A stretch of 64,000 nt of DNA from Alicyclobacillus herbarius DSM 13609 (GTDB lineage Bacteria > Bacillota > Bacilli > Alicyclobacillales > Alicyclobacillaceae), in assembly GCF_000430585.1 (NCBI RefSeq), contig NZ_AUMH01000005.1:1-64000 (forward strand). The letters run 5' to 3'. The translations under genes were made by a program, and so were the position numbers. The notes below the pieces were generated by a model. It ran no database searches, was not told the DNA's origin, and saw only the letters and a program-made list of their open reading frames with translations. This document shows positions 18,060-35,277 of the stretch, in pieces. The first letter of the stretch is position 1; each line of letters begins with the position of its first letter.

Positions 18060-19235
18060 TCACTGAATGATACCCTCACGAATGCCCTTGGCGACCGCCT
18101 CCGTCCGGTTCTTCGCCTGCAGCTTGCGGAGGATGGAACCGACGTATTCCGTGACTGTGTGTTCGCTGATATGGAGCCGTTTTCCGGTCTCCTTGGTGTC
18201 ATGACCATCGGCGATGCACTGCAGTACTTTACGCTCGCGCTGTGTGATTCCGCGCTGATTCCCGACGGCCTGCGCCGGCATGGAGTCGTACATACTCCGC
18301 TGCAATACCTTTCCGACACGGCTGAGCAGGCGGCTGACCAGACTCATGGTCTCTTCATCGACGGAAAACGGATGGCCTGCCTGATCGAGCAGGAGCGCTC
18401 CCATCGGGTGTTCTGACGGCCCGGGAATCGGGCAGACGAACAAGGACTTCAGCTGGAATCGCCGCACGTAGTGTTCCGGCAGGGCGGGCGTGACGTCTTC
18501 GTAAAACGCCGGATAGGAAACGTGCATCGCCCATTGCAAGACCGGAAGGCTGCGTTCGCTCTCATGAATGCGCACAATCTCGTCGACGTCCAGATTGTGC
18601 CCGTAGACTCCTTCCGCGGAATAGGTGAGGGGATTGTACAGGAACAGTGCCCCGCGTGCGAAATGGGCCACCCGGCACACGTACGTTACGGTGATCTCGA
18701 AAACGTCCGCCAGGTCCTTTGCACCAAACAGCGCATCGTCAAAGTCGAGCACCACGTCGTACGCCTCGTAGCGTCCACCCGCCGGGGCGTCGGTACTCGC
18801 GTTCTGCATGCGGGGAAGGTTTTCGATGACGGATCTCGAAAGGGCGCCCGTAACCGAGTGAACCCAGAGAAAGACCGCCTCCGCGTCCGTCACGTCGCAA
18901 TCCTGCCAGAGGACGGAGAGAATCAGTTCCTCCCAATGTTGGAGCAGCAGGATGAGGTCCGCTAGGCTTACGTGCGGCTGGTACGCGAGAATTTCTTCTT
19001 GAAATCGTTCACAAAAATCGCCTTCGTCCGCCAGTGCCGTATCTATGCGACCAAGTAGAAACCCGAACAGCGAGCGCAGGCTTTCCTGCGTGGGTCCAGG
19101 CAATCCAAGCTTCGCAAGGCGGGCTGCAAACGCGGCGCGGCACTGCGGTTCACCGGACTTGAGCGTTCGTAGGATGGTGTCAGCGGTGTGTTTGCGCACT
19201 CTCGGTACGAGCGGTGCGCCGTGGCGACGTGACAC
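18060..19235 (-). CDS. GAF-domain LuxR-family transcriptional regulator
   Basis: This 391-aa protein has an N-terminal helical region (about 1-150), a central GAF-like sensory domain (about 170-320, TYVCRVAHFARGALFLYNPL) and a C-terminal LuxR/NarL HTH (ITQRERKVLQCIADGHDTKE, then HISEHTVTEYVGSILRKLQA). It has no receiver domain, so it probably senses a small ligand directly. The start is a GTG behind GGAGG. It is divergent from the acyl-CoA dehydrogenase operon and is a clear paralogue of the regulator at 35278-36801, which holds an extra domain of about 115 residues. It is the best candidate for controlling the lipid-oxidation genes, with both paralogues bracketing the island. Confidence 0.88.
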   Translation of the reverse strand: MSRRHGAPLVPRVRKHTADTILRTLKSGEPQCRAAFAARLAKLGLPGPTQESLRSLFGFLLGRIDTALADEGDFCERFQEEILAYQPHVSLADLILLLQHWEELILSVLWQDCDVTDAEAVFLWVHSVTGALSRSVIENLPRMQNASTDAPAGGRYEAYDVVLDFDDALFGAKDLADVFEITVTYVCRVAHFARGALFLYNPLTYSAEGVYGHNLDVDEIVRIHESERSLPVLQWAMHVSYPAFYEDVTPALPEHYVRRFQLKSLFVCPIPGPSEHPMGALLLDQAGHPFSVDEETMSLVSRLLSRVGKVLQRSMYDSMPAQAVGNQRGITQRERKVLQCIADGHDTKETGKRLHISEHTVTEYVGSILRKLQAKNRTEAVAKGIREGIIQ

Positions 19236-19353: not shown

Positions 19354-19410
19354 AGGGATACACTTCCCGCAGACCAGGGGTTCTCACAATATTCTACAGG
19401 ATTTTAAATA
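19354..19410 (+). promoter_or_regulatory. promoter and shared 57-bp element, copy A
   Basis: This element lies 115 bp before the acyl-CoA dehydrogenase operon. It contains a -35-like TTCTCA (19381-19386), 17 bp, then TTAAAT (19404-19409). Upstream are AGGGA, CCC and AGACCAGGGG. The whole 57 bp aligns without gaps with copy B at 30863-30919 at about two thirds identity, with a CCC/GGGG inverted repeat over the -35 region in both. It is probably the binding site of a common activator or repressor, perhaps one of the flanking LuxR proteins. Confidence 0.6.
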
Positions 19411-19525
19411 GAGCTGTGAAGAAGCTTCACTACATAGCGCATATGGTGCCTTGTGGATTCCTGCCTAGGTGACCGAGTCTGCTTTTTTCAACCGATGAAT
19501 GATGTCCCCGACAGGAGTGATGGTC

Positions 19526-20680
19526 TTGATCTCGTTTCGGCCCACGGAAGAAGAAGTCGGATTAATCCAGGTCGCGCGGGACTTCGCCAAAGAACGCATA
19601 CGTCCCGCCGCCCGCGATGCGGAGGACGCACTGTCCGTCCCCACAGAACTCGCCGCGAAGGCGGCCGAACTCGGTTTTCTCGTCATGGAATTGCCGGAAT
19701 CCCTGGGCGGCCTCGAACTCAGCGTCGTCTCGCAGGTTCAGGTGTGGGAGGAACTGGCCTATGGCGATCTCGCCCTTGTGCAAGGCTGGCCCGGCCTTGG
19801 CGACGCTGCTTCGTTGCTCCGGTTTACCGCGTATCTACCAAACATTCGGTCGCAGCTCACGAGCGTCGAGATGGACGGCTGCGGACCCACCACCGCCTGG
19901 CTCGACGCGAGCGATCCGAATGTGGCATGGGACAGTGCACCTAGCCTCGTGCAGATTGGCAACGGATACGTCCTGCGCGGTACGTCGCGCCCCGTACGCA
20001 TGGCGCGGGACGCGACGTGCCTGCTCGTCAGCGCGCGCGACGAACAGGGCGTCCCCGTCATCCTCTGGCTACAGCGTTCGCAATCGCCCTGGACGGTTGA
20101 GGAGGGGGACGTCCGGCTCGGCCTGCTCTCTGCGGGCGTGCGGCGTCTTCGCTTCGACGACCTCGAGGTGGGGCCGGAAGATGTCCTGGCCCGCGGCGAG
20201 GGAGCCGAAGCCTTGCTCGCACGCTCACTGCCACGCGTGCGGACGCTGCAGGCGGCCAAGGAGCTCGGGCTGATGCGCGCCGCGCTCGAGTATACGGTCG
20301 AGTATACCGCGGGCCGCAAGGCGTTCGGGCAGGAGATTGCCAAGTTCCAGGGGGTGTCGTTCGTGGCCGCCGACATGCAGATTGAGATGCAGGCCGCGCG
20401 CATGCTCGTCCTAAAGGCAGCCCTCGATATCGACCAGGAGCGCCCGGAGGCGGATGAGTCGTCGCTTTACGCCTTGGCGAGGGCCCATCGCGCAGCCCGG
20501 TTTGTCAGCAACAACGCGGTGCAGTTGCTTGGTGGATCCGGATTCGTCAAGGAATACCCGGTGGAGAAATGGATGCGCGACGCGCAGGCGCAGGTCATGC
20601 TGTACGGGCGCGAGGCCGGCTTCCTGCTCGACGCGGGAGAGCGGCTCGTCCATCCGAAAGGAAAGGTGGCGGTCTCGTGA
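19526..20680 (+). CDS. acyl-CoA dehydrogenase-like subunit lacking the catalytic Glu
   Basis: This protein of about 384 aa has the acyl-CoA dehydrogenase fold: an N-terminal helical domain with RDFAKERIRPAARDAEDAL, a mid beta domain and a C-terminal helical domain with GRKAFGQEIAKFQGVSF. Two usual features are missing. The FAD-binding LTEPxAGSD segment is replaced by TTAWLDASDPN, and the catalytic base position (IFEGT in the neighbour) reads MLYGREAG, with Tyr in place of Glu. Together with the complete dehydrogenase encoded directly after it with a 4-bp overlap, this suggests a heteromeric alpha2-beta2 enzyme like the FadE pairs of actinobacterial steroid degradation. The start is uncertain: TTG 19526 has AGGAG nine bases before it, while ATG 19499 is the longest option. 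Confidence 0.85.
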   Translation: MISFRPTEEEVGLIQVARDFAKERIRPAARDAEDALSVPTELAAKAAELGFLVMELPESLGGLELSVVSQVQVWEELAYGDLALVQGWPGLGDAASLLRFTAYLPNIRSQLTSVEMDGCGPTTAWLDASDPNVAWDSAPSLVQIGNGYVLRGTSRPVRMARDATCLLVSARDEQGVPVILWLQRSQSPWTVEEGDVRLGLLSAGVRRLRFDDLEVGPEDVLARGEGAEALLARSLPRVRTLQAAKELGLMRAALEYTVEYTAGRKAFGQEIAKFQGVSFVAADMQIEMQAARMLVLKAALDIDQERPEADESSLYALARAHRAARFVSNNAVQLLGGSGFVKEYPVEKWMRDAQAQVMLYGREAGFLLDAGERLVHPKGKVAVS

Positions 20681-21897
20681 TTTCACTGGAATTGACGGAA
20701 CCGCAGAAGCAGGTTCGCGATCTCGTTCACTACTTCGCCGAGCATGAGATGCGCCCTATCTCGATGCAGGCGGACAAGGAAGAGCGCGTCCCGGACGACT
20801 GGCTGGCGAAGGTGAACCGTATGGGCATCACGCTCAGCACGCCGGGCGGGGGCGGTGGGACCAAGTCGAAAAGCGCCGAAGACGAGAGGGTAGACCTGGA
20901 GGTGCGCCGCCAGGCGAACCGCCTCAGCGTCATCGCGGCGGAGGAAATGGGCTGGGGCGATCCGGCCATTGCCCTCACGCTTCCGGGCCCTGGACTCGGC
21001 GGCCCGCCCGTGCAGGCTGCGGGTACACCGGAGCAGCGCGAACGGTTCTTGTCCATCTTCACGCGGGATGAGCCGCGCTGGGGAGCGTACGCCCTGACAG
21101 AGCCGGGGGCCGGATCGGACGTGGCGGGCATTCGCACATCGGCCAAGAAGGTGGACGGCGGTTATGTCCTGAACGGGCAGAAGATCTTCATCACCAACGG
21201 TGGGCGGGCGTCCTGGGTCGTCGTGTTTGCCACCGTGGACCCAAGTCTCGGCCGGGCCGGGCACCGTGCGTTCGTGGTCGAGAAAGGGATGCCAGGGTTC
21301 AGCTGTTCGCGCATCGTGCACAAGATGGGCATGCGCGCGTCGGAGACCGCGGAGCTCGTGTTTGAGGACTGCTTCGTTCCGGATGAAAACCTGCTTGGCG
21401 GCGAGGCGTACTACGCCGAGCGCGCGAGCGGCAAGTCCGGTTTCCGCGTGGCCATGTCGACGTTCGACACGACTCGCCCGGTGGTGGCGGCGATGGCGGT
21501 CGGCATTGCCCGCGCGGCCTACGAGTACACGTTGGAGTACGTACGATACGAGTACCCGAAATCCGGGCGGTCCTATCAGACGGCCTGCGAGCGCCTCGCC
21601 GCCATGCACCAGGACATCACGGCCGGTCGCCTGCTCACCTGGGAGGCGGCCTGGAAGGGGGACATTGGCCAGCCGAACGCCAAGGAGGCCGCCGTCTGCA
21701 AAGCGTTCGCCGGCAAAATGGCGCTCGACGTGTGCGCCAGCTGCCTCGAGTTGCTTGGACCGATTGGACTCAACGGTCACATCGTGGAAAAGCTCTATCG
21801 CGACGTCAAGGTCTACGACATCTTTGAGGGCACGAACCAGATTCAACACTTGATTATTGCGCGCCGGCTCTACGAGGAACAGGGGCTGCGCATTTAA
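20677..21897 (+). CDS. acyl-CoA dehydrogenase, catalytic subunit
   Basis: This 406-aa FAD enzyme introduces the 2,3-double bond in an acyl-CoA. It has the FAD/substrate motif ALTEPGAGSDVAGIRTSA near 138 and the C-terminal motif DVKVYDIFEGTNQIQ with the catalytic Glu near 386, ending in a canonical LIIARRLYEEQ helix. The GTG start overlaps the stop of the preceding subunit (GTGA), which implies translational coupling and equal amounts. A Gly/Lys-rich insertion (PGGGGGTKSKSAEDERVD) near residue 56 is unusual for the family. Confidence 0.93.
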   Translation: MISLELTEPQKQVRDLVHYFAEHEMRPISMQADKEERVPDDWLAKVNRMGITLSTPGGGGGTKSKSAEDERVDLEVRRQANRLSVIAAEEMGWGDPAIALTLPGPGLGGPPVQAAGTPEQRERFLSIFTRDEPRWGAYALTEPGAGSDVAGIRTSAKKVDGGYVLNGQKIFITNGGRASWVVVFATVDPSLGRAGHRAFVVEKGMPGFSCSRIVHKMGMRASETAELVFEDCFVPDENLLGGEAYYAERASGKSGFRVAMSTFDTTRPVVAAMAVGIARAAYEYTLEYVRYEYPKSGRSYQTACERLAAMHQDITAGRLLTWEAAWKGDIGQPNAKEAAVCKAFAGKMALDVCASCLELLGPIGLNGHIVEKLYRDVKVYDIFEGTNQIQHLIIARRLYEEQGLRI

Positions 21898-21933
21898 GAG
21901 GTTGTGCAGACACGCACCACGGGGGGACGAGGA

Positions 21934-22746
21934 ATGTCATACCAGACGCTCAAGGTGGAACGGCGCGATAAAGGCGTCGTCCTTTGGACCATCGACAACC
22001 CACCGGCGAACGCCATCGACGACACGTTGCTTGAAGACCTCGACAAGGCGGTCGAGGAGTTTGGCACAGATCCGGAGACGCGGGTGATTTTGGTCACCTC
22101 CGCGCACCCGAAGACGTTCCTGGCAGGCGCCGACTTAAAGATGATGATGCAGAATGCCGGTGATGTAGCCGGAAAACCGGGTGCAATCGCCGCAAAAAGC
22201 CGCCGCATACAGGAGACATTCGCGCGGATTGAGCAAATTCCGAAGCCGGTTATCGCCGCTATGAACGGCCATGCGCTCGGTGGTGGCTGCGAGTTCGCCC
22301 TCGCCTGCGACTTTCGCTTCCTCTCTAAGGGCTACATCGGCCTCAGCGAAGTATCGCTCGGTCTCATTCCGGGTGCCGGCGGGACGCAGCGCCTGACGAG
22401 GCTGCTCGGACGCGCCAAGGCGACGGAACTGATTTTCCGGGCGAAGCGGCTCACGGCAGAGGAGGCGGAGGGGATTGGCCTCATCACACGTGCCGTGGAA
22501 GAGGAGCGGCTGCTGCCGGAGGCACTTGCGTTTGCGGAAGAACTCGCGGAGGGTGCGGTGCAGGCCATGGGCCTGGCCAAGGGCTGCATCCTGGCCGCGA
22601 GCGAAGGGAGAGAGGACGGTTATCGCTGCGAGAGCGAGGCGTTCGAAAAAACGCTTGCGACTGGTGAACCAATCGAAGGTTTCGCGGCGTTCTTCCAGAA
22701 ACGCAAGCCGCAGTTTCTTCCTTCTAAAGCGGGCAACCGCACATAG
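21934..22746 (+). CDS. enoyl-CoA hydratase (crotonase family)
   Basis: This 270-aa enzyme hydrates 2-enoyl-CoA to 3-hydroxyacyl-CoA. The oxyanion segments are FLAGADLKMM and NGHALGGGCEFALACD. The two catalytic Glu are Glu120 (GGCEFA) and Glu139 (LSEVSLGLIPGAGGTQRL). The C-terminal helical region ends FAAFFQKRKPQF, as in short-chain hydratases. The ATG at 21934 is preceded by GGGGGACGAGGA. The longer GTG start at 21904 has no support. It follows the dehydrogenase pair by 36 bp and provides the second beta-oxidation step of the operon. Confidence 0.93.
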   Translation: MSYQTLKVERRDKGVVLWTIDNPPANAIDDTLLEDLDKAVEEFGTDPETRVILVTSAHPKTFLAGADLKMMMQNAGDVAGKPGAIAAKSRRIQETFARIEQIPKPVIAAMNGHALGGGCEFALACDFRFLSKGYIGLSEVSLGLIPGAGGTQRLTRLLGRAKATELIFRAKRLTAEEAEGIGLITRAVEEERLLPEALAFAEELAEGAVQAMGLAKGCILAASEGREDGYRCESEAFEKTLATGEPIEGFAAFFQKRKPQFLPSKAGNRT

Positions 22747-22811
22747 GTTGTTTTTTCGGACACGCATCAATGGAGGAAGAACCTATAGCACTGCAGAGGA
22801 GGAGGACCAAG

Positions 22812-23654
22812 ATGTCATCCTGGGATCTATTGTTGAAGGGCAAGGTCGCACTGGTGACCGGCGCTTCGCGTGGAATCGGGCGGCAGGACGCCTTGGCGCT
22901 GGCAGAGGCGGGGGCGGACGTCGTGGTCACCGACATCCTGATTGAGAGTGACGATACGAGCGCGGACACCGCGAAACAGTTCGGGCCACTCGCTCAAGTC
23001 ATGAACAGCACAAAGGTCGTGTATACGGAAAAGACGGCGCAGGAAATCCAGGCCATGGGTCGGCGATCGTTTGCCATCAAGATGGACGTGACCAACCGCG
23101 ATGAGGTGCGCTCCGTCGTCGAGCGCGTGAAGGCGGAGTTCGGGCGGATCGACATCCTCGTCAACAACGCCGGCACGCTCGATCACATCGCACAGATTGA
23201 GAACCAGAACGACGACCTCTGGGAGCGCGACCTGCGGGTGAACCTGACCGGTGCGTACAACTGCACGAAGGCGGTCTGGCCCATCATGAAGGAGCAGGGA
23301 TGGGGCCGCATCATCAACATGTCCTCGGTGGCCGGTACGCTCGGCGGATTTGGGCAAGCGAGCTACTCGGTAACGAAGGGTGGGCTGCTCAGCTTCACGA
23401 AGAGCATGGCGCTCGAGGGAGCGCGCCACGGTATCAACGTCAACGCGATTATCCCCGGCATCATCGCCACCGAGGCGTTTAAGATGGGCAACCCGAAGAT
23501 GAACGAGCGGATGACTCAGCGCACGGCCTTTCGCCGTCCGGGCGATCCGGAGGACATTGCGAACGCCATCGTCTTCCTGTGTTCCGACAAGGCGAAGTAC
23601 ATCACCGGCATCGGCTTGAACGTCTCCGGCGGCATTGAGCTGTTTACGTTTTAA
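22812..23654 (+). CDS. SDR-family 3-hydroxyacyl-CoA/alcohol dehydrogenase
   Basis: This 280-aa short-chain dehydrogenase has the cofactor motif TGASRGIG at residues 17-24, NNAG in the fourth strand, and the catalytic Tyr185 and Lys189 (SYSVTKGG). Between beta-2 and the DVTNRDEV strand it carries an insertion of about 25-30 residues (DILIESDDTSADTAKQFGPL and onward). Such an insertion is known from mycofactocin-associated SDRs, though no mycofactocin genes are visible here. Its place between hydratase and thiolase points to the third beta-oxidation step (NAD-dependent 3-hydroxyacyl-CoA oxidation). The ATG is preceded by a GGAGGAGGA site. Confidence 0.88.
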   Translation: MSSWDLLLKGKVALVTGASRGIGRQDALALAEAGADVVVTDILIESDDTSADTAKQFGPLAQVMNSTKVVYTEKTAQEIQAMGRRSFAIKMDVTNRDEVRSVVERVKAEFGRIDILVNNAGTLDHIAQIENQNDDLWERDLRVNLTGAYNCTKAVWPIMKEQGWGRIINMSSVAGTLGGFGQASYSVTKGGLLSFTKSMALEGARHGINVNAIIPGIIATEAFKMGNPKMNERMTQRTAFRRPGDPEDIANAIVFLCSDKAKYITGIGLNVSGGIELFTF

Positions 23655-23718
23655 GTCCGTGTCCGGACAACCTCTAGCGGCGCAGGATGCGCCCCATGGA
23701 GGAAGGAGGGATGCCATC

Positions 23719-24867
23719 ATGAACCGCGAGGCCGTTATCGTGGACGCCGTCCGGACGCCCATCGGCAAGCGGGACGGCGCATTTGCCGCAACACATCCGG
23801 TCGACATCCTGATTCCCGTCTTGCAGCGCCTCATTCAGAATTCGGGCATCGATCCCACAAGCGTAGAAGACGTCATCACGGGCTGCGTCACCATGACCGG
23901 AGAACAGGGTGGCAACATCGGGCGCCTGGCGGCACTCGGCGCTGGCCTTCCGGTCGAGGTGCCGGCGGTGTCACTCAACCGTATGTGTGCCTCCAGCCAA
24001 CAGGCCTTGCATTTCGCCTGCCAGGCGATTCTTTCCGGGGACATGGACATCGTCATTGCCTGTGGGGTCGAGAACATGTCGCGCGTGCCCATGGCGGCCG
24101 ATCTCGGACCCTTCAGCACGCAGGTCACGAGCAAGTACAACATCGTACCACAAGGATTCTCGGCGGAGATGATTGCGGAGAAATGGAACATTTCCCGCAT
24201 GGAGCTTGACGAATTCTCGCTCGCCAGCCACGAGAAGGCGGCGAAGGCGGCCGATTCGGGCCAGTTCGAGCGGGAAATCCTCCCCATCGAACCCGCCAAG
24301 GGGGGCGGCGCCTTCTCAGCGGACGAGGGCATCCGCCGCGACACGTCGCTCGAGAAGTTGGCCGGCCTGCGGCCGGCGTTCCGGCCGGATGGTGTGGTGA
24401 CAGCCGGGAACTCGAGCCAAATCAGCGACGGTGCCGCCGGGTTGCTGCTGATGTCGGCCGCGAAGGCACAGGAGCTTGGGCTGCACCCGCGCGCCCGCGT
24501 CGTGGCGCGGGCCGTGGTCGGCGTCGACCCGGTCATCATGCTGACGGGCGTTATCCCCGCGACGCAGAAGGTCCTGCAAAAGGCAGGCTTGTCTCTGGAG
24601 CAGATGGACGTCATTGAGATCAACGAGGCGTTCGCCTCCGTTGTACTCGCCTGGGCCCGCGAGCTTTCCCCCGACATGAGTCGTGTAAACCCGCGCGGCG
24701 GTGCCATCGCACTCGGTCACCCGCTCGGCGCAAGCGGAGCCCGCATCACCACGACCCTGCTGCACGAATTGGAGGATTCTGGTGGCCGGTACGGCCTGCA
24801 GGTCATGTGCATCGGCTTCGGCATGGCCACTGCGACCATCATTGAGCGCCTGTCGGCAGGCGATTGA
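23719..24867 (+). CDS. acetyl-CoA acyltransferase (thiolase)
   Basis: This 382-aa thiolase cleaves 3-ketoacyl-CoA with CoA. The nucleophile is Cys90 (LNRMCASSQQA), the catalytic His334 lies in GHPLGASGAR and the second Cys364 in VMCIGFGMATA. The start VIVDAVRTPIGKRDGAF is the family N-terminus. The ATG at 23719 lies eight bases beyond GGAAGGAGGG. The gene completes the beta-oxidation set of the operon and lies 20 bp before the R2lox gene. Confidence 0.94.
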   Translation: MNREAVIVDAVRTPIGKRDGAFAATHPVDILIPVLQRLIQNSGIDPTSVEDVITGCVTMTGEQGGNIGRLAALGAGLPVEVPAVSLNRMCASSQQALHFACQAILSGDMDIVIACGVENMSRVPMAADLGPFSTQVTSKYNIVPQGFSAEMIAEKWNISRMELDEFSLASHEKAAKAADSGQFEREILPIEPAKGGGAFSADEGIRRDTSLEKLAGLRPAFRPDGVVTAGNSSQISDGAAGLLLMSAAKAQELGLHPRARVVARAVVGVDPVIMLTGVIPATQKVLQKAGLSLEQMDVIEINEAFASVVLAWARELSPDMSRVNPRGGAIALGHPLGASGARITTTLLHELEDSGGRYGLQVMCIGFGMATATIIERLSAGD

Positions 24868-24886: not shown

Positions 24887-25810
24887 ATGTCCAGCAAGAT
24901 GTCCAGCGAGGTGATGAACCTGCGGACCTTCAAGACGACCAGTGAGGCGAGTCTCCAGAGTGAGAGCTTTCCGCTGCGCCTGTACGAAAAGGCGAAGAAG
25001 CTCGGGATTTGGGATCCTGCGGACATCGACTTCCAACAGGACAAAAGAGACTGGGCCGCCATGTCGGAGGCGGACAAGGAAACGTTCCTGCGCCTGTTGT
25101 CCCAATTCCAGGCTGGGGAGGAATCGGTAGCCCTCGACCTCGTACCGTTGATTGACGCGGTGGCCCGAGACGGCCGTCTGGAGGAGGAGATGTTCCTTAC
25201 TACATTCCTGTTCGAAGAGGCTAAGCACACAGAGTTTTTCCACCGCTTTCTAAAAGAGGTCGTGCCCGGGGCAGGAGACCTAACGCGGTTTCACAGTCCC
25301 GCGTACCGCAAGATCTTCTACGAGGAGCTGCCGGAGGCGATGGGCCGCTTGCGCGAGAATACGTCCCCGTCCGCACTCGTCGAGGCCGCGGTCACGTACA
25401 ACATGGTGGTAGAAGGGGTTATCGCCGAGAGCGGCTACTACATCTTTTTTGAGACCGCGAAGAAACAGGGCAAGCTTCCCGGCCTCGTACAGGGGATCAC
25501 CTATGTCAAGATGGACGAGTCACGCCATATTAGCTATGGAACCTATCTCATCCAGCGTTGCCTTCAGGCGGATCCCAAGCTGTGGGACGTCGTCAATCGC
25601 AAGCTGACGGGCTTCGTGCCCACACTGCTCGGTTATATCGAAGAGAATTTCGATCCGCAAAGCCTGCCCGAGGGCATGGATTACAATAACTTCCTGACCT
25701 ATTCGTCGAACTTGCTGAGAAATCGCCTAACCGTCCTGGAACGGGCCCTCAAGCAGCCCATCGATGAGATTTACCGGATCGGCCAACGTGAGGTCGAAGT
25801 CATCGAATAA
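24887..25810 (+). CDS. R2-like ligand-binding oxidase (R2lox), Mn/Fe
   Basis: This 307-aa protein belongs to the ferritin-like R2lox group, which assembles a heterodinuclear Mn/Fe cofactor, binds a long-chain fatty acid in a hydrophobic channel and forms a Tyr-Val ether crosslink. All expected residues are visible with one constant offset of 9 from the studied Geobacillus protein: metal ligands Glu78, Glu111, His114, Glu176, Glu211 and His214, and the crosslink pair Val81 and Tyr171. It lacks the radical-transfer C-terminus and partner of a ribonucleotide reductase beta subunit, as which it is often mis-annotated. The ATG is 20 bp after the thiolase stop, with GAGGTGTTGAGG before it. Its physiological substrate is unknown; the operon suggests a lipid or hydrocarbon oxygenation. 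Confidence 0.92.
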   Translation: MSSKMSSEVMNLRTFKTTSEASLQSESFPLRLYEKAKKLGIWDPADIDFQQDKRDWAAMSEADKETFLRLLSQFQAGEESVALDLVPLIDAVARDGRLEEEMFLTTFLFEEAKHTEFFHRFLKEVVPGAGDLTRFHSPAYRKIFYEELPEAMGRLRENTSPSALVEAAVTYNMVVEGVIAESGYYIFFETAKKQGKLPGLVQGITYVKMDESRHISYGTYLIQRCLQADPKLWDVVNRKLTGFVPTLLGYIEENFDPQSLPEGMDYNNFLTYSSNLLRNRLTVLERALKQPIDEIYRIGQREVEVIE

Positions 25811-25835
25811 ATTCGCAGTTCTAGGAGGTTCTGTG

Positions 25836-27353
25836 GTGGCACAATTCTATCCGTTATTTATTGGCGGCCAGAAAGTACCCGCACGGTCAAGGGAAACGTT
25901 TGACGTAATCAATCCGTCCGATGGTCAGGTCTGTGCAAGTGTAGCTAAGGCTGGAGTCGAAGATGTCCATGAAGCGGTTCGAGTCGCAAAGGAAACCTTT
26001 GAATCCGGTGTCTGGAGTCGAACTTCCGTCACAGAACGCGCCGATGTGTTGGTGAAGATAGGAGCGAGGATTGCTCAACGCGCACAAGAAATTGCCGTGC
26101 TCGAGTCTACACAATCTGGCGGTACGCTCCGCAGAACGATGGGAAGCGACGTACTCCAGGTCGCTCAACAGTTTACGGTTACGGCGCAGATTCTGCGGAA
26201 CTTTCCCATGCGGGAAGAGTTGCCGAGTCTTGCGTTCCCGGGTCCTTCCGTCAATATGGTGGAAAGAGAGCCAATGGGAGTATGCGGATTGATTACTCCG
26301 TGGAACTTCCCACTCATTCTCGCGAGCTGGAAGTTGGCACCGGCTCTCGCAATGGGGAATTCAGTTGTCATGAAGCCGGCGACAAACACACCTCTCACCA
26401 CGTTATTGCTCGCTGAAATCTGCCAAGAATGCGGTGTCCCCGACGGGATCGTCAACGTCGTCACCGGGCCGGGAGCCCTCGTTGGGGAAGCACTTGTGAC
26501 TCATCCGGATGTGGATAAGATCTCGTTTACCGGATCGACCGAGGTGGGGCGTCGTATTATGCAAATGGCTTCCACCACAGTAAAGCGTGTGACGCTTGAA
26601 CTGGGTGGGAAAAGTCCGACGATTGTATTGCGTGACGCAGATTTAGACCTTCTCGAGGAAGGTGCTCTGTTCGGGGCATTCTTGCACAGTGGCCAAATTT
26701 GTGAATCCGGAACCCGCCTCATCGTACCGCGTGACATGCAAGATGAAATTGTGGAGCGGCTTGTTGCCAAGGCAGCTACGATTTCTATCGGAAATGCGCT
26801 CGACCTGAAAACGGGTCTCGGCCCTGTTGTGTCCAAAGCCCAGCAAGATACGATTCTGAATTATATCAAGATTGGGCTTAAAGAGGGAGCCGAACTCGCT
26901 TGCGGCGGTGCTGTTCCGGAGAACGTACCCCCCGATGGATTTTACGTACAGCCAACGATTTTCAAGAACGTGGATAACTCCATGCGGATTGCTCAGGAAG
27001 AAATCTTTGGACCTGTCCTATGTGTCATTCCTTACGATACGGAAGAGGATGCCATTCGTATTGCCAATGATACGATTTACGGTCTCGCGGCAGGCGTTTG
27101 GAGCAAGGACGTCATCAAGGCGCAAACCATCGCACGGAAACTTCGGGCAGGTACGGTCTGGATCAATGACTGGCACATGCTTCGTCCGGACGCTCCGTTT
27201 GGTGGTTATAAGCAATCTGGGTTCGGACGTGAGTCTGGGTATCAAGTCCTCTTTGAGTACTCACAAACCAAACATATGCACACCTCGATGATCCCGGATA
27301 AGGCGCAGCGGCCGTGGTATTCCATCTTGTTCGACAGTTGGTTAACCCAGTAA
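25836..27353 (+). CDS. NAD-dependent aldehyde dehydrogenase
   Basis: This 505-aa enzyme oxidises an aldehyde to a carboxylic acid. The catalytic Cys289 is in SGQICES, the general-base Glu255 in LELGGKSP, and the cofactor segments are TPWNFP and FTGSTEVGRRI. The start is one of two tandem GTG codons (25833 or 25836) after AGGAGG; 25836 has the better spacing. It lies 25 bp after the R2lox gene and 47 bp before the alcohol dehydrogenase gene. Together these three could turn a hydrocarbon-type substrate into a fatty acid, which the ligase at 31474 would activate. Confidence 0.93.
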   Translation: MAQFYPLFIGGQKVPARSRETFDVINPSDGQVCASVAKAGVEDVHEAVRVAKETFESGVWSRTSVTERADVLVKIGARIAQRAQEIAVLESTQSGGTLRRTMGSDVLQVAQQFTVTAQILRNFPMREELPSLAFPGPSVNMVEREPMGVCGLITPWNFPLILASWKLAPALAMGNSVVMKPATNTPLTTLLLAEICQECGVPDGIVNVVTGPGALVGEALVTHPDVDKISFTGSTEVGRRIMQMASTTVKRVTLELGGKSPTIVLRDADLDLLEEGALFGAFLHSGQICESGTRLIVPRDMQDEIVERLVAKAATISIGNALDLKTGLGPVVSKAQQDTILNYIKIGLKEGAELACGGAVPENVPPDGFYVQPTIFKNVDNSMRIAQEEIFGPVLCVIPYDTEEDAIRIANDTIYGLAAGVWSKDVIKAQTIARKLRAGTVWINDWHMLRPDAPFGGYKQSGFGRESGYQVLFEYSQTKHMHTSMIPDKAQRPWYSILFDSWLTQ

Positions 27354-27400
27354 TTCCATTCGCAACCACAATGTATGCAAGACTCGTCAGGAGGATGCAC

Positions 27401-28591
27401 ATGCCAAAGCAAACGTATTTTCGATTTGATTTTCGTACATCCGTCTCGGCTGGAGCAGGGGCACGCGCTTTTTTACCCGCTCACATGAAAGAACTGGGCG
27501 GAAAACGTTGGATTGTTATTACCGATAAGGGAGTCGTGAATGCAGGGGTTGTCGATCAAGTTCTTTCGGCACTCGATGGCCCGAACGACCTGCAAGTCGT
27601 GTACGTATTTGACGAAGTTCTGCAAGATGCCCGGATGTCTTTGGTCAACAAGGCGACAAAAATCGCGAGAGAGTATTCTGCAGATGGAATTCTCGCCGTT
27701 GGCGGCGGGAGTGTTCTGGACACAGCAAAGGGCGTAAAGATGCTGCTCACGTCTGGATTCACGGATATTGCGCAAACCGTTCCAGGCAACTTGGGACTGT
27801 ATGTAGGAGAATTGGCCAAAAGACTTCCGATTCCTCACATTGCCATTCCCACGACGGCGGGTACTGGCGCAGAGGTTTCTCCCATCGCGGTATTCATGAA
27901 CGAAGAAGACCACGTGAAAGCGAACTTGCTTCACCCGTATATCAACGCGGATATCGCCATTCTGGACCCAGATCTCACGGTAGGTCTTCCGCCCAAGATT
28001 ACTGCCTTTACAGGCTTTGACGCCTTAACCCATGCCGTCGAGGGTGTGGCTTGGGCGAATCAGGGACCGATGTACGACGCACTCGGACTGCAAGCCATTC
28101 GACTCATTGATAAAAACTTGGCGACCGCCGTGCATGCAGGAACCAACATAGAAGCGCGTATGAATATGCTCACAGCGAGCTGTATGGCCATCATGTCGTT
28201 TCCAGCTTCCGGTGCAATTCCGGTGCACAACTGTGCGCACGCGCTGGGCGCGATGTACGGCATACCTCACGGGCTCGCAAATGCCGTACTCTTGCCTATC
28301 GTGATGGAAGCGCTACCAGAGATATACCTACCGAAGATTGAGTGGATTGCAGATGCAATGGGTATCAAGGAAACGGGTACATCCGAACAGCTGCACCAAA
28401 GAACGTTAGCTCGGATTCGAGAACTGCAAGCTGAGGCGAACTTACCGACCAACTTCCTGGAATTTGGTCCGAAACAGTCCGAACTGCAGCAGGCCATGAT
28501 AAACGTACTGAACGATCCCGCTGGGGTCGTGTTCAAGATTCCGGTAGAAAGGTTGATTCAAATCCTAACCAAGTCGTTATTTGGGATGTAG
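27401..28591 (+). CDS. iron-containing alcohol dehydrogenase
   Basis: This 396-aa type III (Fe-ADH) dehydrogenase oxidises a primary alcohol to an aldehyde with NAD(P). The cofactor motif GGGSVLDTAKG is near residue 105. The metal site is formed by Asp and His residues of the segments IPTTAGTGAEVSP, GFDALTHAVE and HNCAHALGAMYGIPHGLA. The ATG at 27401 follows AGGAGG. The upstream in-frame start at 27314 overlaps the aldehyde dehydrogenase and is not supported. Its adjacency to aldehyde dehydrogenase and R2lox implies a shared alcohol-aldehyde-acid route. Confidence 0.93.
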   Translation: MPKQTYFRFDFRTSVSAGAGARAFLPAHMKELGGKRWIVITDKGVVNAGVVDQVLSALDGPNDLQVVYVFDEVLQDARMSLVNKATKIAREYSADGILAVGGGSVLDTAKGVKMLLTSGFTDIAQTVPGNLGLYVGELAKRLPIPHIAIPTTAGTGAEVSPIAVFMNEEDHVKANLLHPYINADIAILDPDLTVGLPPKITAFTGFDALTHAVEGVAWANQGPMYDALGLQAIRLIDKNLATAVHAGTNIEARMNMLTASCMAIMSFPASGAIPVHNCAHALGAMYGIPHGLANAVLLPIVMEALPEIYLPKIEWIADAMGIKETGTSEQLHQRTLARIRELQAEANLPTNFLEFGPKQSELQQAMINVLNDPAGVVFKIPVERLIQILTKSLFGM

Positions 28592-28628: not shown

Positions 28629-30326
28629 ATGCCAGCTCTCGCGACGGATACCGAGAGCCTCGACCTGACTGCCGTGAGGCACCGCCTCAGGAAAGAAGGC
28701 GAGGCCATAACGCCAAGAAAGCGCTTTCGAACTACGACGAGAATCCTCATGAAACACGGGGTCTTCCATATCCTGCGCGATCGCAGCAAGGACGATGAGA
28801 CGAAGCATCGCCTGCTCGGGAAACGGCTGCGTCTGGCGTTTGAAGAACTCGGCCCAACCTATATCAAACTGGGTCAGGTTATACTGACGCGCCAGGAACT
28901 GTTGCCGGACGCGCTGACGAAAGAACTGGAACCCCTGCTCAGTGACGTCCCGCCCCTGTCCTTTCCCGAGATGCAAACCGTGCTGGAAGACAACATTCCG
29001 GATTGGCGGGAAATGTTTGACTCCATCGATCCAACTCCCATCGGCTCAGCTTCGCTCGCGCAGGTCTATCGGGGCAGACTGAAGGACGGCCGCCCGGCCG
29101 CCGTCAAGATTATCCGGCCCCTGGTCGGAAAGCTGTTCCAGGCCGACATCACGGTCATCCGCAAGCTGGTCCGACGTGTATACCGCATGTTGCCGCCGGA
29201 GATGACGGTGTCACTCGACCTGCCCGGCCTCCTTGAGGACTATTACAGCAGCTCGCGCGACGAACTCGACCTGCGGCGCGAGGCTGAAATCATGAACATA
29301 CACCGAGAGATGATCTCCGAATTCGCGACACTGCACATTCCCGAGGTCTACCACGTCACAGAGCACGTGCTCGTGATGGAATACATCGACGGGTGGAACC
29401 TCAAAAACTTCCCGGTCGATTTTCTCACATTTGAAGAGCGCATGGAGCGCATGCTCGATCTCGGGCACTGGTACGTAAAGACGTTCGTAGCAGGCTATTA
29501 TCACGCCGATCCGCACGGTTCGAACATCATGATTGACCGCCATACAAAAAAAGCTGTGATTATCGATTGGGGCATGACGGGGACCATGGACGCCGTCCAC
29601 ACGGAAGCCATCTTTCGGCTACTGATGCACGTCCGTTTGAATCAGGCGGAAGATGCCATCGAGGCCGGGATGGACGTCTGTGAACCAACTCGCTACACCG
29701 ATACGGTCAACCTGAAGGACCAGCTGCGCAGTCTCTTCATCCATTACACCATGAGCCATCAAGGAAGCCGTTACAACTGGGGCAGCCTGCTCATGAACAC
29801 GATTCTTATCTGCGCGAAAAACCACTGTCGTATCCCGACGGGGCTCGCGCTCTGGACCAAAGGATTCTCCGCGGCGGAGGCGACTGCACGTTGGCTGTGC
29901 CCGGAGATTTGTTACCACGACGTCGTGGAGACGGCAGATGTGCAGATTATGCGCAGCTGGCTGAGCCGGCGCCTGAACTATCGGGCCAACGCGAGCCTAC
30001 TCGCGGAGACCGCAAAGCTGGTCACCACACTGCCGCGGCGGCTGAACAAGTTTTTGGAATACCTGGAGTGGAACAAACTTCATTTTACGATGGACGCCCA
30101 GCTGTCAAAGCCGACGGCGCGCCTCTTGCACAAGGTCAGCAATCGTGTGTCGTTGTCGTTTCTGGCAGGAACCTTCTTTCTCGGCGGCTCACTGATGCTC
30201 TCGTTCGGAGCGCGAAACGGGGCAGCTCTAGGCGGAATTGAGACACTTGGCACGAGCGCAGTCATCGTCAGCGCTGTGCTGACCCTGCTTGTGCTCTGGA
30301 GCGTGTTCCGCTCACGACGCGTTTAA
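28629..30326 (+). CDS. ABC1/AarF/UbiB-type kinase-like membrane protein
   Basis: This 565-aa protein of the ancient UbiB (ABC1/ADCK) family has the KxGQ motif YIKLGQ in its N-terminal helix. Next come the atypical nucleotide loop GSASLAQVYRG with the lysine in AAVKIIRP, the catalytic loop YHADPHGSNIMID and the metal motif IIDWGM. Two hydrophobic segments at the C-terminus (after residue 500) anchor it in the membrane. Family members are ATPases that support isoprenoid lipid (quinone) biosynthesis or lipid movement. In this operon a role in handling hydrophobic substrate is plausible. The ATG follows AGGAGGG. Confidence 0.9.
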   Translation: MPALATDTESLDLTAVRHRLRKEGEAITPRKRFRTTTRILMKHGVFHILRDRSKDDETKHRLLGKRLRLAFEELGPTYIKLGQVILTRQELLPDALTKELEPLLSDVPPLSFPEMQTVLEDNIPDWREMFDSIDPTPIGSASLAQVYRGRLKDGRPAAVKIIRPLVGKLFQADITVIRKLVRRVYRMLPPEMTVSLDLPGLLEDYYSSSRDELDLRREAEIMNIHREMISEFATLHIPEVYHVTEHVLVMEYIDGWNLKNFPVDFLTFEERMERMLDLGHWYVKTFVAGYYHADPHGSNIMIDRHTKKAVIIDWGMTGTMDAVHTEAIFRLLMHVRLNQAEDAIEAGMDVCEPTRYTDTVNLKDQLRSLFIHYTMSHQGSRYNWGSLLMNTILICAKNHCRIPTGLALWTKGFSAAEATARWLCPEICYHDVVETADVQIMRSWLSRRLNYRANASLLAETAKLVTTLPRRLNKFLEYLEWNKLHFTMDAQLSKPTARLLHKVSNRVSLSFLAGTFFLGGSLMLSFGARNGAALGGIETLGTSAVIVSAVLTLLVLWSVFRSRRV

Positions 30327-30365: not shown

Positions 30366-30770
30366 ATGCCTGAACCTCGACGGGATGGACTTTGGACTGA
30401 ATCCGAAATGAAGGACGAGGAGGCTTTCACGCTTAGACAGCGCATGGAGGCGTTTTATCGCCAGAGCGGTGGACCGAACAATCCGGACATCCAGCGCATC
30501 CTGAATAATCACTTAAAGAACGGTAAGGACCACGGCCGACGCGGCCATCGCCAGACGGTGGAAGACGCCTTTATCGAGACCATCGTAGGGGATCCTACGC
30601 TCTTGCTTGTGTTTGAACGCGTCCGGCAGTGGCGTAATCGCAAGGAGCAAACGACGAAAGGAGTTCCATCTTCCTTGCAGGACGACATCCGTCATCTCCG
30701 GTCCGAAGTCGCCGCGTTGCGCGAGGAAATTGCTTCAGTGAAGGCCCTGCTTGGAGCCCCCACGAAGTAA
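30366..30770 (+). CDS. hypothetical protein with C-terminal coiled coil
   Basis: This 134-aa cytoplasmic protein is not recognised. It is strongly charged, with a basic middle (KNGKDHGRRGHRQTVEDAF) and a short C-terminal coiled coil (DDIRHLRSEVAALREEIASV). It starts with ATG at 30366 after CGGAGGTG, 40 bp behind the UbiB-like gene. The spacing and strong ribosome site suggest the two are co-expressed. The size and coiled-coil end recall small granule- or membrane-surface proteins, but there is no direct evidence for such a role. Confidence 0.7.
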   Translation: MPEPRRDGLWTESEMKDEEAFTLRQRMEAFYRQSGGPNNPDIQRILNNHLKNGKDHGRRGHRQTVEDAFIETIVGDPTLLLVFERVRQWRNRKEQTTKGVPSSLQDDIRHLRSEVAALREEIASVKALLGAPTK

Positions 30771-30862: not shown

Positions 30863-30919
30863 AGGGAGATAGTACCCCCAGAACAGGGGTTCACACAGTT
30901 TAGCGTAAGATTTTAAATA
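30863..30919 (+). promoter_or_regulatory. promoter and shared 57-bp element, copy B
   Basis: This is the second copy of the element found at 19354-19410, placed 44 bp before the SCP2 gene. The -35-like TTCACA (30890-30895) and TTAAAT (30913-30918) are separated by 17 bp, and CCCCCAGAACAGGGG forms an inverted repeat over the -35 region. AGGGA, CAGA, CAGGGGTTC, CACA and GATTTTAAATA are common to both copies without gaps. It gives the SCP2-ligase genes their own promoter under the same control as the dehydrogenase operon. Confidence 0.6.
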
Positions 30920-30962
30920 AAATCACAGACCTATCTCAAGGATGACGAGGAGGAGCATACCT

Positions 30963-31298
30963 ATGCCGACGACGAAAGAAATTTTCGAGAAGATCCAGGA
31001 AACCTTACAGGCCGATCCGTCCCGCACTGGCGGCCTGACTGCCATCTATCAGTTCAACCTCACCGGGGACGATGCCGGCGTCTACCAAATCAACCTGACC
31101 CCCGAGAGTGCGAAGGTTTCTGAAGGCGAGCAGGACACTCCTCAGTGCACGTTGGAACTGTCGGCTGACGACTTCAAGGAGATGGTGCAAGGCAACCTGA
31201 ACGGAACAGTCGCCTTCATGAGCGGCAGGTTGAAGGTGCACGGGGACCTTGGACTTGCGTTACGCCTGGAATCTGTACTCAAGGCGTATAGTGCTTAA
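30963..31298 (+). CDS. SCP2 sterol-binding domain protein
   Basis: This 111-aa single-domain protein has the SCP2 fold: an N-terminal helix (TTKEIFEKIQETLQADPSRT), alternating strands (AIYQFNLTGDDAGVYQINLT), and the family end LKVHGDLGLALRLESVLKAY. Such domains bind fatty acyl-CoA, sterols or other lipids and present them to enzymes. The ATG at 30963 follows GAGGAGGAG. It lies between promoter copy B and the acyl-CoA ligase gene and probably carries the hydrophobic substrate of this island. Confidence 0.9.
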   Translation: MPTTKEIFEKIQETLQADPSRTGGLTAIYQFNLTGDDAGVYQINLTPESAKVSEGEQDTPQCTLELSADDFKEMVQGNLNGTVAFMSGRLKVHGDLGLALRLESVLKAYSA

Positions 31299-31473
31299 CC
31301 TCAGTGGGAACGACTTGGGCCGAGTACGGCTTGAGAGCCGGGGTGCCATCGGGATCGTCATCGGGATTAGCATGGCGCCCTCACGTAACTCTGACGGAAG
31401 TCGAGGATGGCGGCGCTGCCCGTGCAGGCGGCGCCATTGTCCGTTTTCCCGTGCTCGAAGACAGGAGGGAATG

Positions 31474-33018
31474 CCCATGAACCTAGCCCTGCTTTGGCGC
31501 GAAAACATCAAAACGTTCGGTAGATATATCAACCTGATTTACCAGGGACGCGAATTCACCAATGTTGAGTGTAACGAGGTCTCTGCGAAACTCGCAAACC
31601 AACTGCACAAACTTGGTATCGGGCGGGGAGACAGGGTCCTCGTCTCCATGCCAAACTGCCCGGAGGTCGTGTTCGCATATAGCGGTATCATCAAGGCCGG
31701 TGCCGTGGTGGTACCCGCCATGCCGCTCCTGCAGCCGGATGAAATCCGCTACATTGTGAAAGACAGCAGACCAAAAGCCGTTCTCACCATGAACATGCTG
31801 CTGGCAAAGATCGAGGAGGCCGTCCGGGACCTTCCGGATTCACCGAAGGTCTATTGCCTGGACGAGGGTGGCGGCCCAGACTCGTTTCGCTCTCAAATGG
31901 AGGATTGCCCGACTACACCGCCGAGTGAGATACCTGCAGACGACGACCTTGCCGTGCTCCTCTATACGTCCGGTACCACAGGGCGGCCCAAGGGCGTGAT
32001 GCTCAGCCACAGGAATCTCTACTCGAACGCCAAGGAAGCAGCAGAACTCGCCAAGGCCTATCCGCTCAAGTCAAAACGAGTCGGGCTTGGCATCCTGCCT
32101 CTATCGCACGCCTTTGGCTTCACCACGATGCTCACCACCCTGTTACTGGGGGAAACGGATGTGCTCCTGCCGTACTTCGACCCTATACAGGTATTCCAAG
32201 CGATAGAGCGCTACAAGGTGACACATTTCACTGCGGTACCCGCGATGTTTTACGCCCTCTACAACCACCCTGACGCGGACAAATACGACCTGTCGTCCTT
32301 GTCTGTCTGCGTTTCGGGATCAGCCCCATTGCCACAGTCGTTGAGCGAGGACTTCGAGAAAAAGTTCGATTGCCGGATTTACGAGGGATACGGGCTCTCC
32401 GAAGCGTCCCCGATTGTGACGGCACCGCGGCCGGACCTTCCCGTGAAACCGGGATCGGTAGGCCTTCCCCTGCCGGGAGTCGAAGTCAAGGTCGTCGACG
32501 ATAGCGGCCGGGAGCTGCCGCGACACGAGGTTGGCGAGCTGCTTGTGCGCGGCCCCAATGTGACCCATGGCTATTACAACATGCCCGACGAAACCAGGGC
32601 CGCCATACAGGACGGGTGGCTACACACGGGTGATATGGCGCGCATCGACGAGGAAGGCTACGTATATATCGTAGACCGCAAGAAGGACCTCATCATTCGG
32701 GGTGGGTTCAATATCTACCCGAGAGACCTCGAGGAACTATTACTTACGCACCCGGCCGTGGCAGAGGTCGGGGTCGTAGGGACGCCATCGGATGCGATGG
32801 GCGAGGAGGTTGTGGCCTACGTGGTCAAGCACTGGGGTGCGGATACCTCGGAGGAGGAACTCATCGAGTTTTGTCAACGCAAACTCGCCAAATACAAGAC
32901 CCCGCGCTACATTCGGTTTGTCGGGTATCTTCCGCGCAATCTGATAGGTAAAGTTGACAAAAAGATACTCAGGGAATGGGCAGCTGACATCGGTGTGGTG
33001 GTCGAGCAAAGAGACTAG
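31474..33018 (+). CDS. acyl-CoA synthetase (AMP-forming)
   Basis: This 514-aa adenylating enzyme activates a carboxylic acid to its CoA thioester. The P-loop-like motif is YTSGTTGRPKG, the adenine-binding motif YEGYGLSEASP, and the hinge segment GWLHTGDMARIDEEGY is followed by DRKKDLIIRGGFNIYP. The catalytic lysine is in GKVDKKILRE. The ATG at 31474 follows AGGAGGG. A 175-bp spacer after SCP2 contains a GC-rich partial inverted repeat (about 31408-31440) but no gene. It would supply the acyl-CoA for the dehydrogenase pair from the acid made by the aldehyde dehydrogenase. Confidence 0.94.
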   Translation, partial: PMNLALLWRENIKTFGRYINLIYQGREFTNVECNEVSAKLANQLHKLGIGRGDRVLVSMPNCPEVVFAYSGIIKAGAVVVPAMPLLQPDEIRYIVKDSRPKAVLTMNMLLAKIEEAVRDLPDSPKVYCLDEGGGPDSFRSQMEDCPTTPPSEIPADDDLAVLLYTSGTTGRPKGVMLSHRNLYSNAKEAAELAKAYPLKSKRVGLGILPLSHAFGFTTMLTTLLLGETDVLLPYFDPIQVFQAIERYKVTHFTAVPAMFYALYNHPDADKYDLSSLSVCVSGSAPLPQSLSEDFEKKFDCRIYEGYGLSEASPIVTAPRPDLPVKPGSVGLPLPGVEVKVVDDSGRELPRHEVGELLVRGPNVTHGYYNMPDETRAAIQDGWLHTGDMARIDEEGYVYIVDRKKDLIIRGGFNIYPRDLEELLLTHPAVAEVGVVGTPSDAMGEEVVAYVVKHWGADTSEEELIEFCQRKLAKYKTPRYIRFVGYLPRNLIGKVDKKILREWAADIGVVVEQRD

Positions 33019-34340: not shown

Positions 34341-34440
34341 GGTACACGCTCCTTTTTGACTGTGGGTTTCAGGAACGGTGCGATTCGGATTCGGATATTC
34401 GCATACATCGTAGATGCATCGATTCAATACGAATCTAGAA

Positions 34441-35247: not shown

Positions 35248-35277
35248 ATCGACCCGAAATTGATGAGAAGGGGGGCC

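Follow-up and report, generated by a model that had tools for sequence, protein, structure and literature searches.

An R2-like ligand-binding oxidase in a putative hydrocarbon- or lipid-oxidation gene set of Alicyclobacillus herbarius

The window analyzed herein, a 64,000-nucleotide stretch of the genome of Alicyclobacillus herbarius DSM 13609, encodes a protein confirmed, from its family matches and residues, as a genuine R2-like ligand-binding oxidase (R2lox), and its gene lies among those of a set of lipid-oxidizing enzymes. We propose, as a reading that we hold to be reasonably probable, that these genes form an inducible set, headed by R2lox as the O2-activating Mn/Fe hydroxylase, that takes up and oxidizes a long oily molecule; alkanes or an alkane-like lipid are the most likely candidates. 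For all the study devoted to this Mn/Fe protein, R2lox has remained enigmatic to bioinorganic chemists, and little is known of its job. A role in alkane hydroxylation was put forward in 2024 for a relative, GkR2loxI of G. kaustophilus, on the basis of lysate assays (PMC10867098), so the lipid/hydrocarbon oxidation hypothesis of the initial annotation, although plausible and accompanied by an enriched neighborhood, is not new. What is plausibly new is the enrichment measured against controls, a shared upstream element, a link to the protein P21, a clue to electron transfer from Rhodococcus, and the candidate partnership of R2lox with orf137 and ABC1.

The R2lox protein and its gene cluster

The R2lox gene (24887-25810, + strand) encodes 307 residues and follows a putative ribosome binding site, GAGGTG. 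The protein matches PF00268 (83.8 bits), passes the NCBIfam models NF006202, 'R2-like ligand-binding oxidase' (329.7 bits, cut-off 315), and NF006200 (291.8 bits, cut-off 194), and matches three more R2lox models, each below its own cut-off; its top match in the PDB is 4hr0 (E 2.4e-72), which is GkR2loxI (PMC10867098). A misannotated ribonucleotide reductase R2 protein is ruled out, with the listed ribonucleotide reductase models scoring at most 53 bits. The metal ligands E78, E111, H114, E176, E211, and H214 and the ether cross-link pair V81/Y171, as reported by the initial annotation, are all present and are invariant in the 88 aligned R2lox proteins (88/88), while Y184, which aligns with the cavity tyrosine of the Gk protein, Tyr175 (PMC4118035), is Tyr in 85 of the 88.

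The genome contains a second R2lox on contig C4 (C4:145424-146278, L083:9413-10300), which is 47% identical to that of the window and outscores it on NF006202 (350.2 vs 329.7). None of the ten ORFs scanned beside it is an oxidation gene; a LuxR-type match is present, and its neighbors include nitroreductase, MatE, and glycosyltransferase genes. The closest relative of the window R2lox (62%) is in Alicyclobacillus tolerans (L004, approximately 10001-10888), where a second R2lox is nearby and the gene order is R2lox-ALDH-FeADH followed by thiolase-R2lox-SCP2.

The features of the window around R2lox are as follows (ACAD, acyl-CoA dehydrogenase; ECH, enoyl-CoA hydratase; SDR, short-chain dehydrogenase/reductase; ALDH, aldehyde dehydrogenase; ADH, alcohol dehydrogenase).

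18060-19235, - strand: LuxR-type regulator with GAF domain, divergent from the cluster (Pfam GerE and GAF)
19376-19410, + strand: 35-bp upstream element AGGGGTTCnCACA-N11-GATTTTAAATA, copy 1, before the first ACAD
19499-20680, + strand: ACAD-like protein, probable non-catalytic partner (Pfam, sequence)
20569-21897, probable later start near 20677, + strand: ACAD with FEGT motif (Pfam)
21904-22746, + strand: ECH family (Pfam ECH_1)
22770-23654, probable start 22812, + strand: SDR (Pfam adh_short_C2)
23635-24867, probable start 23719, + strand: thiolase (Pfam Thiolase_N/C; TIGR01930)
24887-25810, + strand: R2lox (Pfam, NCBIfam, PDB match, residues)
25764-27353, probable start 25833 or 25836, + strand: ALDH (Pfam Aldedh, E 6.7e-176)
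27314-28591, probable start 27395 or 27401, + strand: iron-type ADH (Pfam Fe-ADH)
28629-30326, + strand: ABC1/UbiB (COQ8-like) atypical kinase/ATPase (Pfam ABC1, E 6.5e-46, scored on a longer ORF from 28581)
30366-30770, + strand: orf137, small protein of an unnamed family linked to R2lox (no Pfam or NCBIfam match)
30885-30919, + strand: 35-bp upstream element, copy 2, before SCP2; a CCCC-N7-GGGG dyad overlaps its start
30942-31298, probable start 30963, + strand: SCP2 lipid-carrier protein (Pfam SCP2)
31249-33018, start uncertain, + strand: acyl-CoA ligase (Pfam AMP-binding)
33140-33652, - strand: protein distantly related to the DUF6230 group (iterated profile; no Pfam match)
33801-34346, - strand: DUF6230 protein with N-terminal hydrophobic helix (PF19741, scored on the longer ORF 33801-34571)
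35134-36801, + strand: second LuxR-type regulator with GAF domain (Pfam GerE and GAF)

From the first ACAD to the ligase the genes are co-directional, in the order ACAD, ACAD, ECH, SDR, thiolase, R2lox, ALDH, Fe-ADH, ABC1, orf137, SCP2, and AMP-binding ligase, and Pfam bears out the position of R2lox between the thiolase gene and those for ALDH and ADH that had been described initially. Between the thiolase gene and orf137 the gaps separating successive genes are about 20-50 bp when the likely real starts are used. The C-terminal EGT motif that the second ACAD carries as FEGT is missing from the first, which also has no match to the middle-domain Pfam family; the top PDB match of the second is 1ukw (E 2.2e-71). 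Heteromeric ACADs exist, and to judge by their sequences the two proteins would fit such a pair. The thiolase scores 457.7 bits on TIGR01930 (cut-off 240.55) and 408 bits on the steroid 3-ketoacyl-CoA thiolase model NF005889, which is below the cut-off of 515, and the PDB relatives of the Fe-ADH include Fe-type ADHs. The ABC1 protein matches the structures of COQ8A/ADCK3, and its KLGQ, AVK, HADxH, and IIDWG segments, which we take to be the KxGQ and kinase-like motifs, align with a solved ABC1-type protein. The ABC1/UbiB gene, orf137, the DUF6230-type genes, the two flanking LuxR-type genes, and the second R2lox were all absent from the initial annotation.

That annotation had placed SCP2, the ligase, and a β-oxidation set in the same run as R2lox; the genes are indeed there but the single run is not. 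The gap between orf137 and SCP2 is 171-192 bp and contains the second copy of the 35-bp element, which rules out a plain operon through to the ligase, and hence the run is better described as two units, ACAD to orf137 and SCP2-ligase, that are probably co-regulated. The pattern of the element was drawn from its two copies in the window, and with up to three mismatches it occurs at these two places only in the genome of 3,310,509 bases (3.31 Mb), and 100 shuffles of the window contain no instance of it. Over 60 bases around the two copies 41 positions are identical, compared with 31 at the runner-up site of the window. Allowing up to five mismatches gave no copy in any other locus retrieved; at six mismatches there were six places, two of them in controls, which we take as chance. 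A search for repeats inside each of the two upstream regions separately found none, and consensus scans for promoter-like sites (7 vs 5.6 in shuffles) and terminator-like sites (10 vs 14.3 in shuffles) were uninformative. The divergent LuxR/GAF regulator gene adjoins copy 1, and we infer that its product binds the element.

Several other genes of the window should be noted. An ORF at 17360-17863 (+ strand) has the N-terminal GroES-like domain of a zinc ADH but not the NAD-binding part, and it is perhaps a remnant of such an enzyme, because many R2lox stretches of the ABC1 type hold a zinc ADH where an Fe-ADH is found here; an intact zinc-type ADH lies at 41432-42481 (- strand). Two phytanoyl-CoA dioxygenase-type (PhyH) genes (14420-15286 and 15428-16330, both - strand) are a few kb 5' of the cluster and adjoin ABC-transporter genes and an AraC regulator. 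Between 50538 and 52602 a UPF0261 protein and then a phosphoenolpyruvate hydrolase-like protein are encoded as a neighboring pair.

R2lox neighborhoods in Bacilli and on plasmids

By profile search (E ≤ 1e-20), R2lox was found in 7 of 398 genomes sampled across the phylum, in 77 of 398 across the class, and in 23 of the 59 that represent the order; two of those sampled from the genus of the window gave no match at this threshold. The search of the class gave 100 match rows, and stretches of up to 20 kb around them were used for a census of neighboring genes. The 68 R2loxI stretches comprise 67 high-scoring places and the second R2lox of this genome, with two stretches holding two rows each, and 13 of the 23 low-scoring rows were also examined; excluded from the census were the window, six rows of high score from a single genus already represented by rows that were taken, and the other 10 low-scoring rows. 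The controls were 40 stretches of 18.9 kb, two at set positions from each of 20 contigs (19 R2lox-bearing genomes), all unmatched for function and all of one length, whereas the R2lox stretches run from 4.9 to 20 kb and are shorter at contig ends.

Score thresholds were set by us, iteration of the DUF6230 profile drew in proteins of the type encoded at 33140-33652 as well, and the family profiles lean towards R2lox-linked members because they were built from the first R2lox loci; counted in this way, the R2loxI stretches (of 68) versus controls (of 40) contain a LuxR-type regulator in 45 vs 1, any ADH in 34 vs 2, ALDH in 26 vs 2 (42 stretches have none), ALDH and ADH together in 26 vs 0, ABC1 in 23 vs 0, orf137 in 22 vs 0, Fe-ADH in 19 vs 0, SDR in 19 vs 1, the DUF6230 group in 18 vs 0, ACAD in 16 vs 2, SCP2 in 10 vs 0, and thiolase in 8 vs 0. 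There is no clear enrichment of the ligase (18/68 vs 5/40, P 0.07) or of ECH (8/68 vs 2/40, P 0.21), and the P values overstate independence since the sampled loci are related by descent. The neighbors whose enrichment had been suggested initially as a check of the hypothesis, ALDH, Fe-ADH, SCP2, and ACAD, are therefore enriched, and the hypothesis is not refuted on this count. The 13 low-scoring stretches have Fe-ADH in 10, ALDH in 9, and ABC1 in none, and in a separate set of 79 loci, selected because they resemble the query closely, genes of the ALDH and Fe-ADH types are each found in 42, often directly 3' of R2lox. Much of the enzyme set recurs in other gene orders (L114, L117, L119, L145, L147, L053, L055, and L060). 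The linkage of R2lox with oxidation genes is common but not universal, and the majority of R2loxI stretches have an incomplete set. Seven of the low-scoring, R2loxII-like stretches (L156-L161 and L163) have the order ALDH-FeADH-R2lox followed by a gene of about 450-470 codons, with a ligase and ECH upstream in L156-L160; by analogy with the MFS transporter next to R2lox on pHTA426, that gene may encode a transporter.

The ABC1/UbiB ATPase and orf137 may be working partners of R2lox. The window member of the orf137 family has no match in Pfam or NCBIfam, its predicted structure is helical with a long C-terminal helix (low confidence, mean pLDDT 62), and 15 columns are invariant in the family alignment of 13 rows. 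A profile search across whole genomes, in which the ten best first-look candidates of each genome were scored, found the family in 30 of the 398 genomes of the class, all 30 of them among the 77 that have R2lox, and in none of the other 47 R2lox genomes. The probability of this co-occurrence by chance is about 2e-24 counted by genomes and 5e-13 by genera (19 of 145), values that are too small because of shared descent; the genera span 11 families of the sample. Of 32 orf137 places, 24 are no farther than 10 kb from R2lox, a number that rises to 28 at a limit of 25 kb, the remaining four being on another contig (three) or 510 kb away (one). Relative to R2lox, ABC1 occupies position +1 to +3 on the same strand in 17 of the 68 stretches, and it is on the R2lox strand in 22 of the 23 stretches that contain it, L120 being the exception. 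It is accompanied by orf137 in 22 of the 23, and the remaining stretch (L139) ends inside ABC1, with the genome search placing orf137 just beyond its edge. Usually orf137 is directly 3' of ABC1, with DUF6230-type genes intervening in some stretches. On the R2lox tree the two genes occur in one large clade, in a Geobacillus-type clade (L144-L147), and in L120, so that the link is old or has been passed on more than once; the window R2lox is placed beside the large clade with a support of 0.0. It should be noted that ABC1 itself is not specific to R2lox genomes, as PF03109 has a match in 398 of 398 genomes, many of them weak, and a stronger ABC1 is found on contig C1 of the same genome (275.7 bits vs 156.9 for that of the window). 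Hence, the special feature is the placement of ABC1 beside R2lox and its tie to orf137. No open-access text was found that pairs 'ligand-binding oxidase' with 'ABC1', an absence that is weak evidence given this scope, and the main text of PMC10867098 does not contain 'ABC1', 'kinase', GK2773, GK2775, or GK2776.

Six of the 33 plasmid records with an R2lox match were viewed, and those from Rhodococcus bear on the source of electrons. On all three (R. opacus B4, R. sp. 008, and R. oxybenzonivorans) R2lox is accompanied by an NDMA-dependent ADH, an NAD(P)/FAD oxidoreductase, and a ferredoxin, and on two of the three by ALDH, SCP2, and a ligase. The locus of a Mycobacterium plasmid has a ligase, ADH, ACAD, and P450, that of the Bacilli plasmid pHTA426 of G. 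kaustophilus has ALDH, Fe-ADH, and an adenylate-forming enzyme with GkR2loxII, and that of a haloarchaeal (Haloterrigena) plasmid, for which the gene table is incomplete, has ketoacyl-type genes and no annotated ALDH, Fe-ADH, or SCP2. Queried with the Rhodococcus proteins, the A. herbarius genome has a counterpart of the reductase on contig C3 (45% identical) and ferredoxin-type matches, one of them in an 89-residue frame on C15, with no match to either on the contig of the window and no electron donor found in the window. Among the R2loxI stretches of Bacilli the reductase query matched 2 of 68 (L118 and L124) vs 1 of 40 controls (L189) and the ferredoxin query none of 68; thus, the Rhodococcus electron-transfer pair is not a conserved neighbor there.

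The link to alkanes comes from G. kaustophilus and from P21. According to PMC10867098, G. kaustophilus uses C10-C24 alkanes, a role in hydrocarbon oxidation was proposed from its GK2769-GK2782 cluster, and alkanes are lost in crude lysates of E. coli making GkR2loxI; the evidence given there is alkane loss with no identified product, activity is only partly lost, with most of it retained, in an E202A/H205A double ligand mutant, and ferredoxin is named as a possible host-derived cofactor. The statement of the initial annotation that R2lox has no proven physiological substrate is therefore still fair as regards that report. P21 and P16 are reported to be membrane proteins that long-chain alkanes induce, whereas palmitic acid, tributyrin, and trimyristin do not (PMC2676291). 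Four P21 peptides match an ORF in an R2lox locus (L146:10229-10831) at 16/17, 16/16, 18/19, and 18/19 positions, and the window DUF6230 protein is 27% identical to this ORF (BLASTP E 2e-11), both being DUF6230 proteins, so the window carries a relative of alkane-induced P21, about 8 kb from R2lox and not adjacent to it. The model of the window protein (mean pLDDT 61) is, like that of orf137, too weak for interpretation and has no PDB match at E ≤ 0.001, and the one open-access paper found to name DUF6230 concerns, by title, another topic, an absence that is weak evidence. Runs of DUF6230-related proteins with a LuxR gene are also seen near R2lox in Alicyclobacillus (L006/L087, L008/L095, and L005/L085), and the members of this family may be hydrocarbon carriers.

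A hypothetical pathway and its alternatives

In the pathway that we favor, the DUF6230/P21-type proteins, SCP2, and the ABC1/UbiB ATPase with orf137 would bring or extract the substrate, into which R2lox would insert oxygen using electrons from a ferredoxin and reductase encoded elsewhere in the genome. The Fe-ADH and ALDH would convert the product to the acid, the ligase would form the CoA ester, and the ACAD pair, ECH, SDR, and thiolase would shorten the chain, with the LuxR/GAF regulator probably switching on both units via the shared element. In favor of this pathway are the identity of R2lox, the gene order and spacing, the enrichment over controls, the shared element, the alkane loss with GkR2loxI, the P21 locus, and the Rhodococcus loci. 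Against it count the 42 of 68 stretches that lack ALDH, the second R2lox without oxidation genes, the lack of clear enrichment of ligase and ECH, the haloarchaeal locus, the lack of a linked electron donor here, the partly mutant-resistant lysate activity, and the description of R2lox in PMC10401708 as one of the proteins that activate C-H bonds stoichiometrically.

Bulky isoprenoids or sterols would be further substrates compatible with the ACAD pair and SCP2. We give a minor but real likelihood to R2lox acting, as a hydroxylase or desaturase, on a membrane-derived or isoprenoid/sterol-like lipid that the operon remodels or degrades, rather than on n-alkanes. Such a role would suit the presence of a UbiB-type ATPase and SCP2 in one cluster, the two PhyH-type genes upstream, the score of the thiolase with the steroid model, albeit under its cut-off, and the one ACAD without an EGT motif, as expected of a heteromeric enzyme, a type of pair for which there is a steroid parallel. 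A desaturase proposal for R2lox is also recounted in PMC4118035, but P21, the gene of which lies in a Geobacillus-type R2lox locus, points the other way in being induced by long-chain alkanes but unresponsive to palmitic acid, tributyrin, or trimyristin, as does the use of C10-C24 alkanes by G. kaustophilus (PMC10867098).

It is unlikely, in our judgment, that R2lox is not a pathway oxygenase at all but an oxidase that senses lipid or oxygen or has a protective function, that reacts a single time, forming its cross-link, and that lies near fatty-acid genes for regulation. In favor of this are the Tyr-Val ether link that R2lox makes and its binding of a fatty acid (PMC6399176), a ligand that is taken as not turned over (PMC4118035), together with the stoichiometric description in PMC10401708, the absence of a linked ferredoxin in the Bacilli stretches, and the near-equal rarity of the reductase in stretches and controls; yet a ferredoxin and reductase are linked to R2lox in Rhodococcus, alkane loss is reported for GkR2loxI (PMC10867098), and the full metal site is kept in all aligned R2lox proteins. 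Even less credible to us is that the neighborhood is a general fatty-acid degradation island with R2lox as a passenger. The many R2lox stretches without these enzymes, the second R2lox without them, and the two sampled genomes of the same genus with no R2lox match at E ≤ 1e-20 would agree with this, but the enrichment holds across differing gene orders and several R2lox clades, orf137 is restricted to the R2lox genomes of the sample, and the genes of the window are tightly spaced and share an element.

Returning to R2lox as the hydroxylase of a catabolic pathway, we tentatively extend the proposal to one large R2lox group in Bacilli, which could be the catalytic part of a lipid-hydroxylase system wherein the UbiB-type ATPase, orf137, and often SCP2 would extract a membrane-buried hydrocarbon or lipid and hand it to the Mn/Fe site. 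In this extension orf137 would be a dedicated R2lox partner, and the system would operate in a COQ8-COQ9-COQ7-like mode that evolved separately for catabolism. The census supports a role of the GkR2loxI type in Bacilli, and Rhodococcus points to a ferredoxin and FAD reductase as the likely type of electron donor missing from the lysate assays. The two candidate partners, the ABC1/UbiB ATPase and the orf137 family, are absent from the main text of PMC10867098, and a reconstituted reaction containing donor and partners would make the substrate question directly testable.

Relation to known systems

The closest published parallel is the GkR2loxI cluster, GK2769-GK2782, in which R2lox occurs with ALDH, ADH, a CoA ligase, ACAD, ECH, SDR, thiolase, and a P21-type gene (PMC10867098), and the window likewise combines R2lox with ADH, ALDH, CoA ligase, and β-oxidation genes. 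The loci L144 and L146, whose assignment as Geobacillus-like rests partly on the P21 peptides, resemble the window in having ABC1 and orf137 beside R2lox, together with ALDH and the P21 gene, and their R2lox proteins are 40-41% identical to that of the window. They have a zinc-type ADH, whereas in the window ALDH is followed by the iron-type enzyme, and the window also differs from the GkR2loxI type in that a second unit, preceded by another copy of the upstream element, is made up of SCP2 and the ligase. GkR2loxII on pHTA426 shares with the window the association of R2lox with Fe-ADH, ALDH, and an adenylate-forming enzyme, but it is only 26% identical to the window R2lox, adjoins the MFS transporter, and has no ABC1 or SCP2 annotated in its stretch. 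The Rhodococcus plasmid loci are similar in the linkage of R2lox to an ADH, and in two of three to ALDH, SCP2, and a ligase, and they differ in the NDMA-dependent type of the ADH, in the direct linkage of ferredoxin and FAD reductase to R2lox, and in the MCE genes that adjoin the R. opacus locus; no β-oxidation run is annotated in the stretches viewed, unlike the window.

A further parallel is provided by the UbiB/UbiJ/UbiK and COQ7/COQ8/COQ9 systems. There, as in the window, an ATPase of the UbiB/COQ8 type and a protein with an SCP2 domain occur near a dimetal oxidase together with a small protein that has a long C-terminal helix; the comparison by sequence covered the similarity to COQ8A. 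An SCP2-domain lipid binder is encoded beside ABC1 (30942-31298), a correspondence at the domain level only, and no UbiK-type small coiled-coil protein was identified, the likeness of orf137 being confined to the C-terminal helix of its low-confidence model. The window differs from these systems in that orf137 has no sequence link to a named family and in that the oxidase is R2lox and not COQ7.
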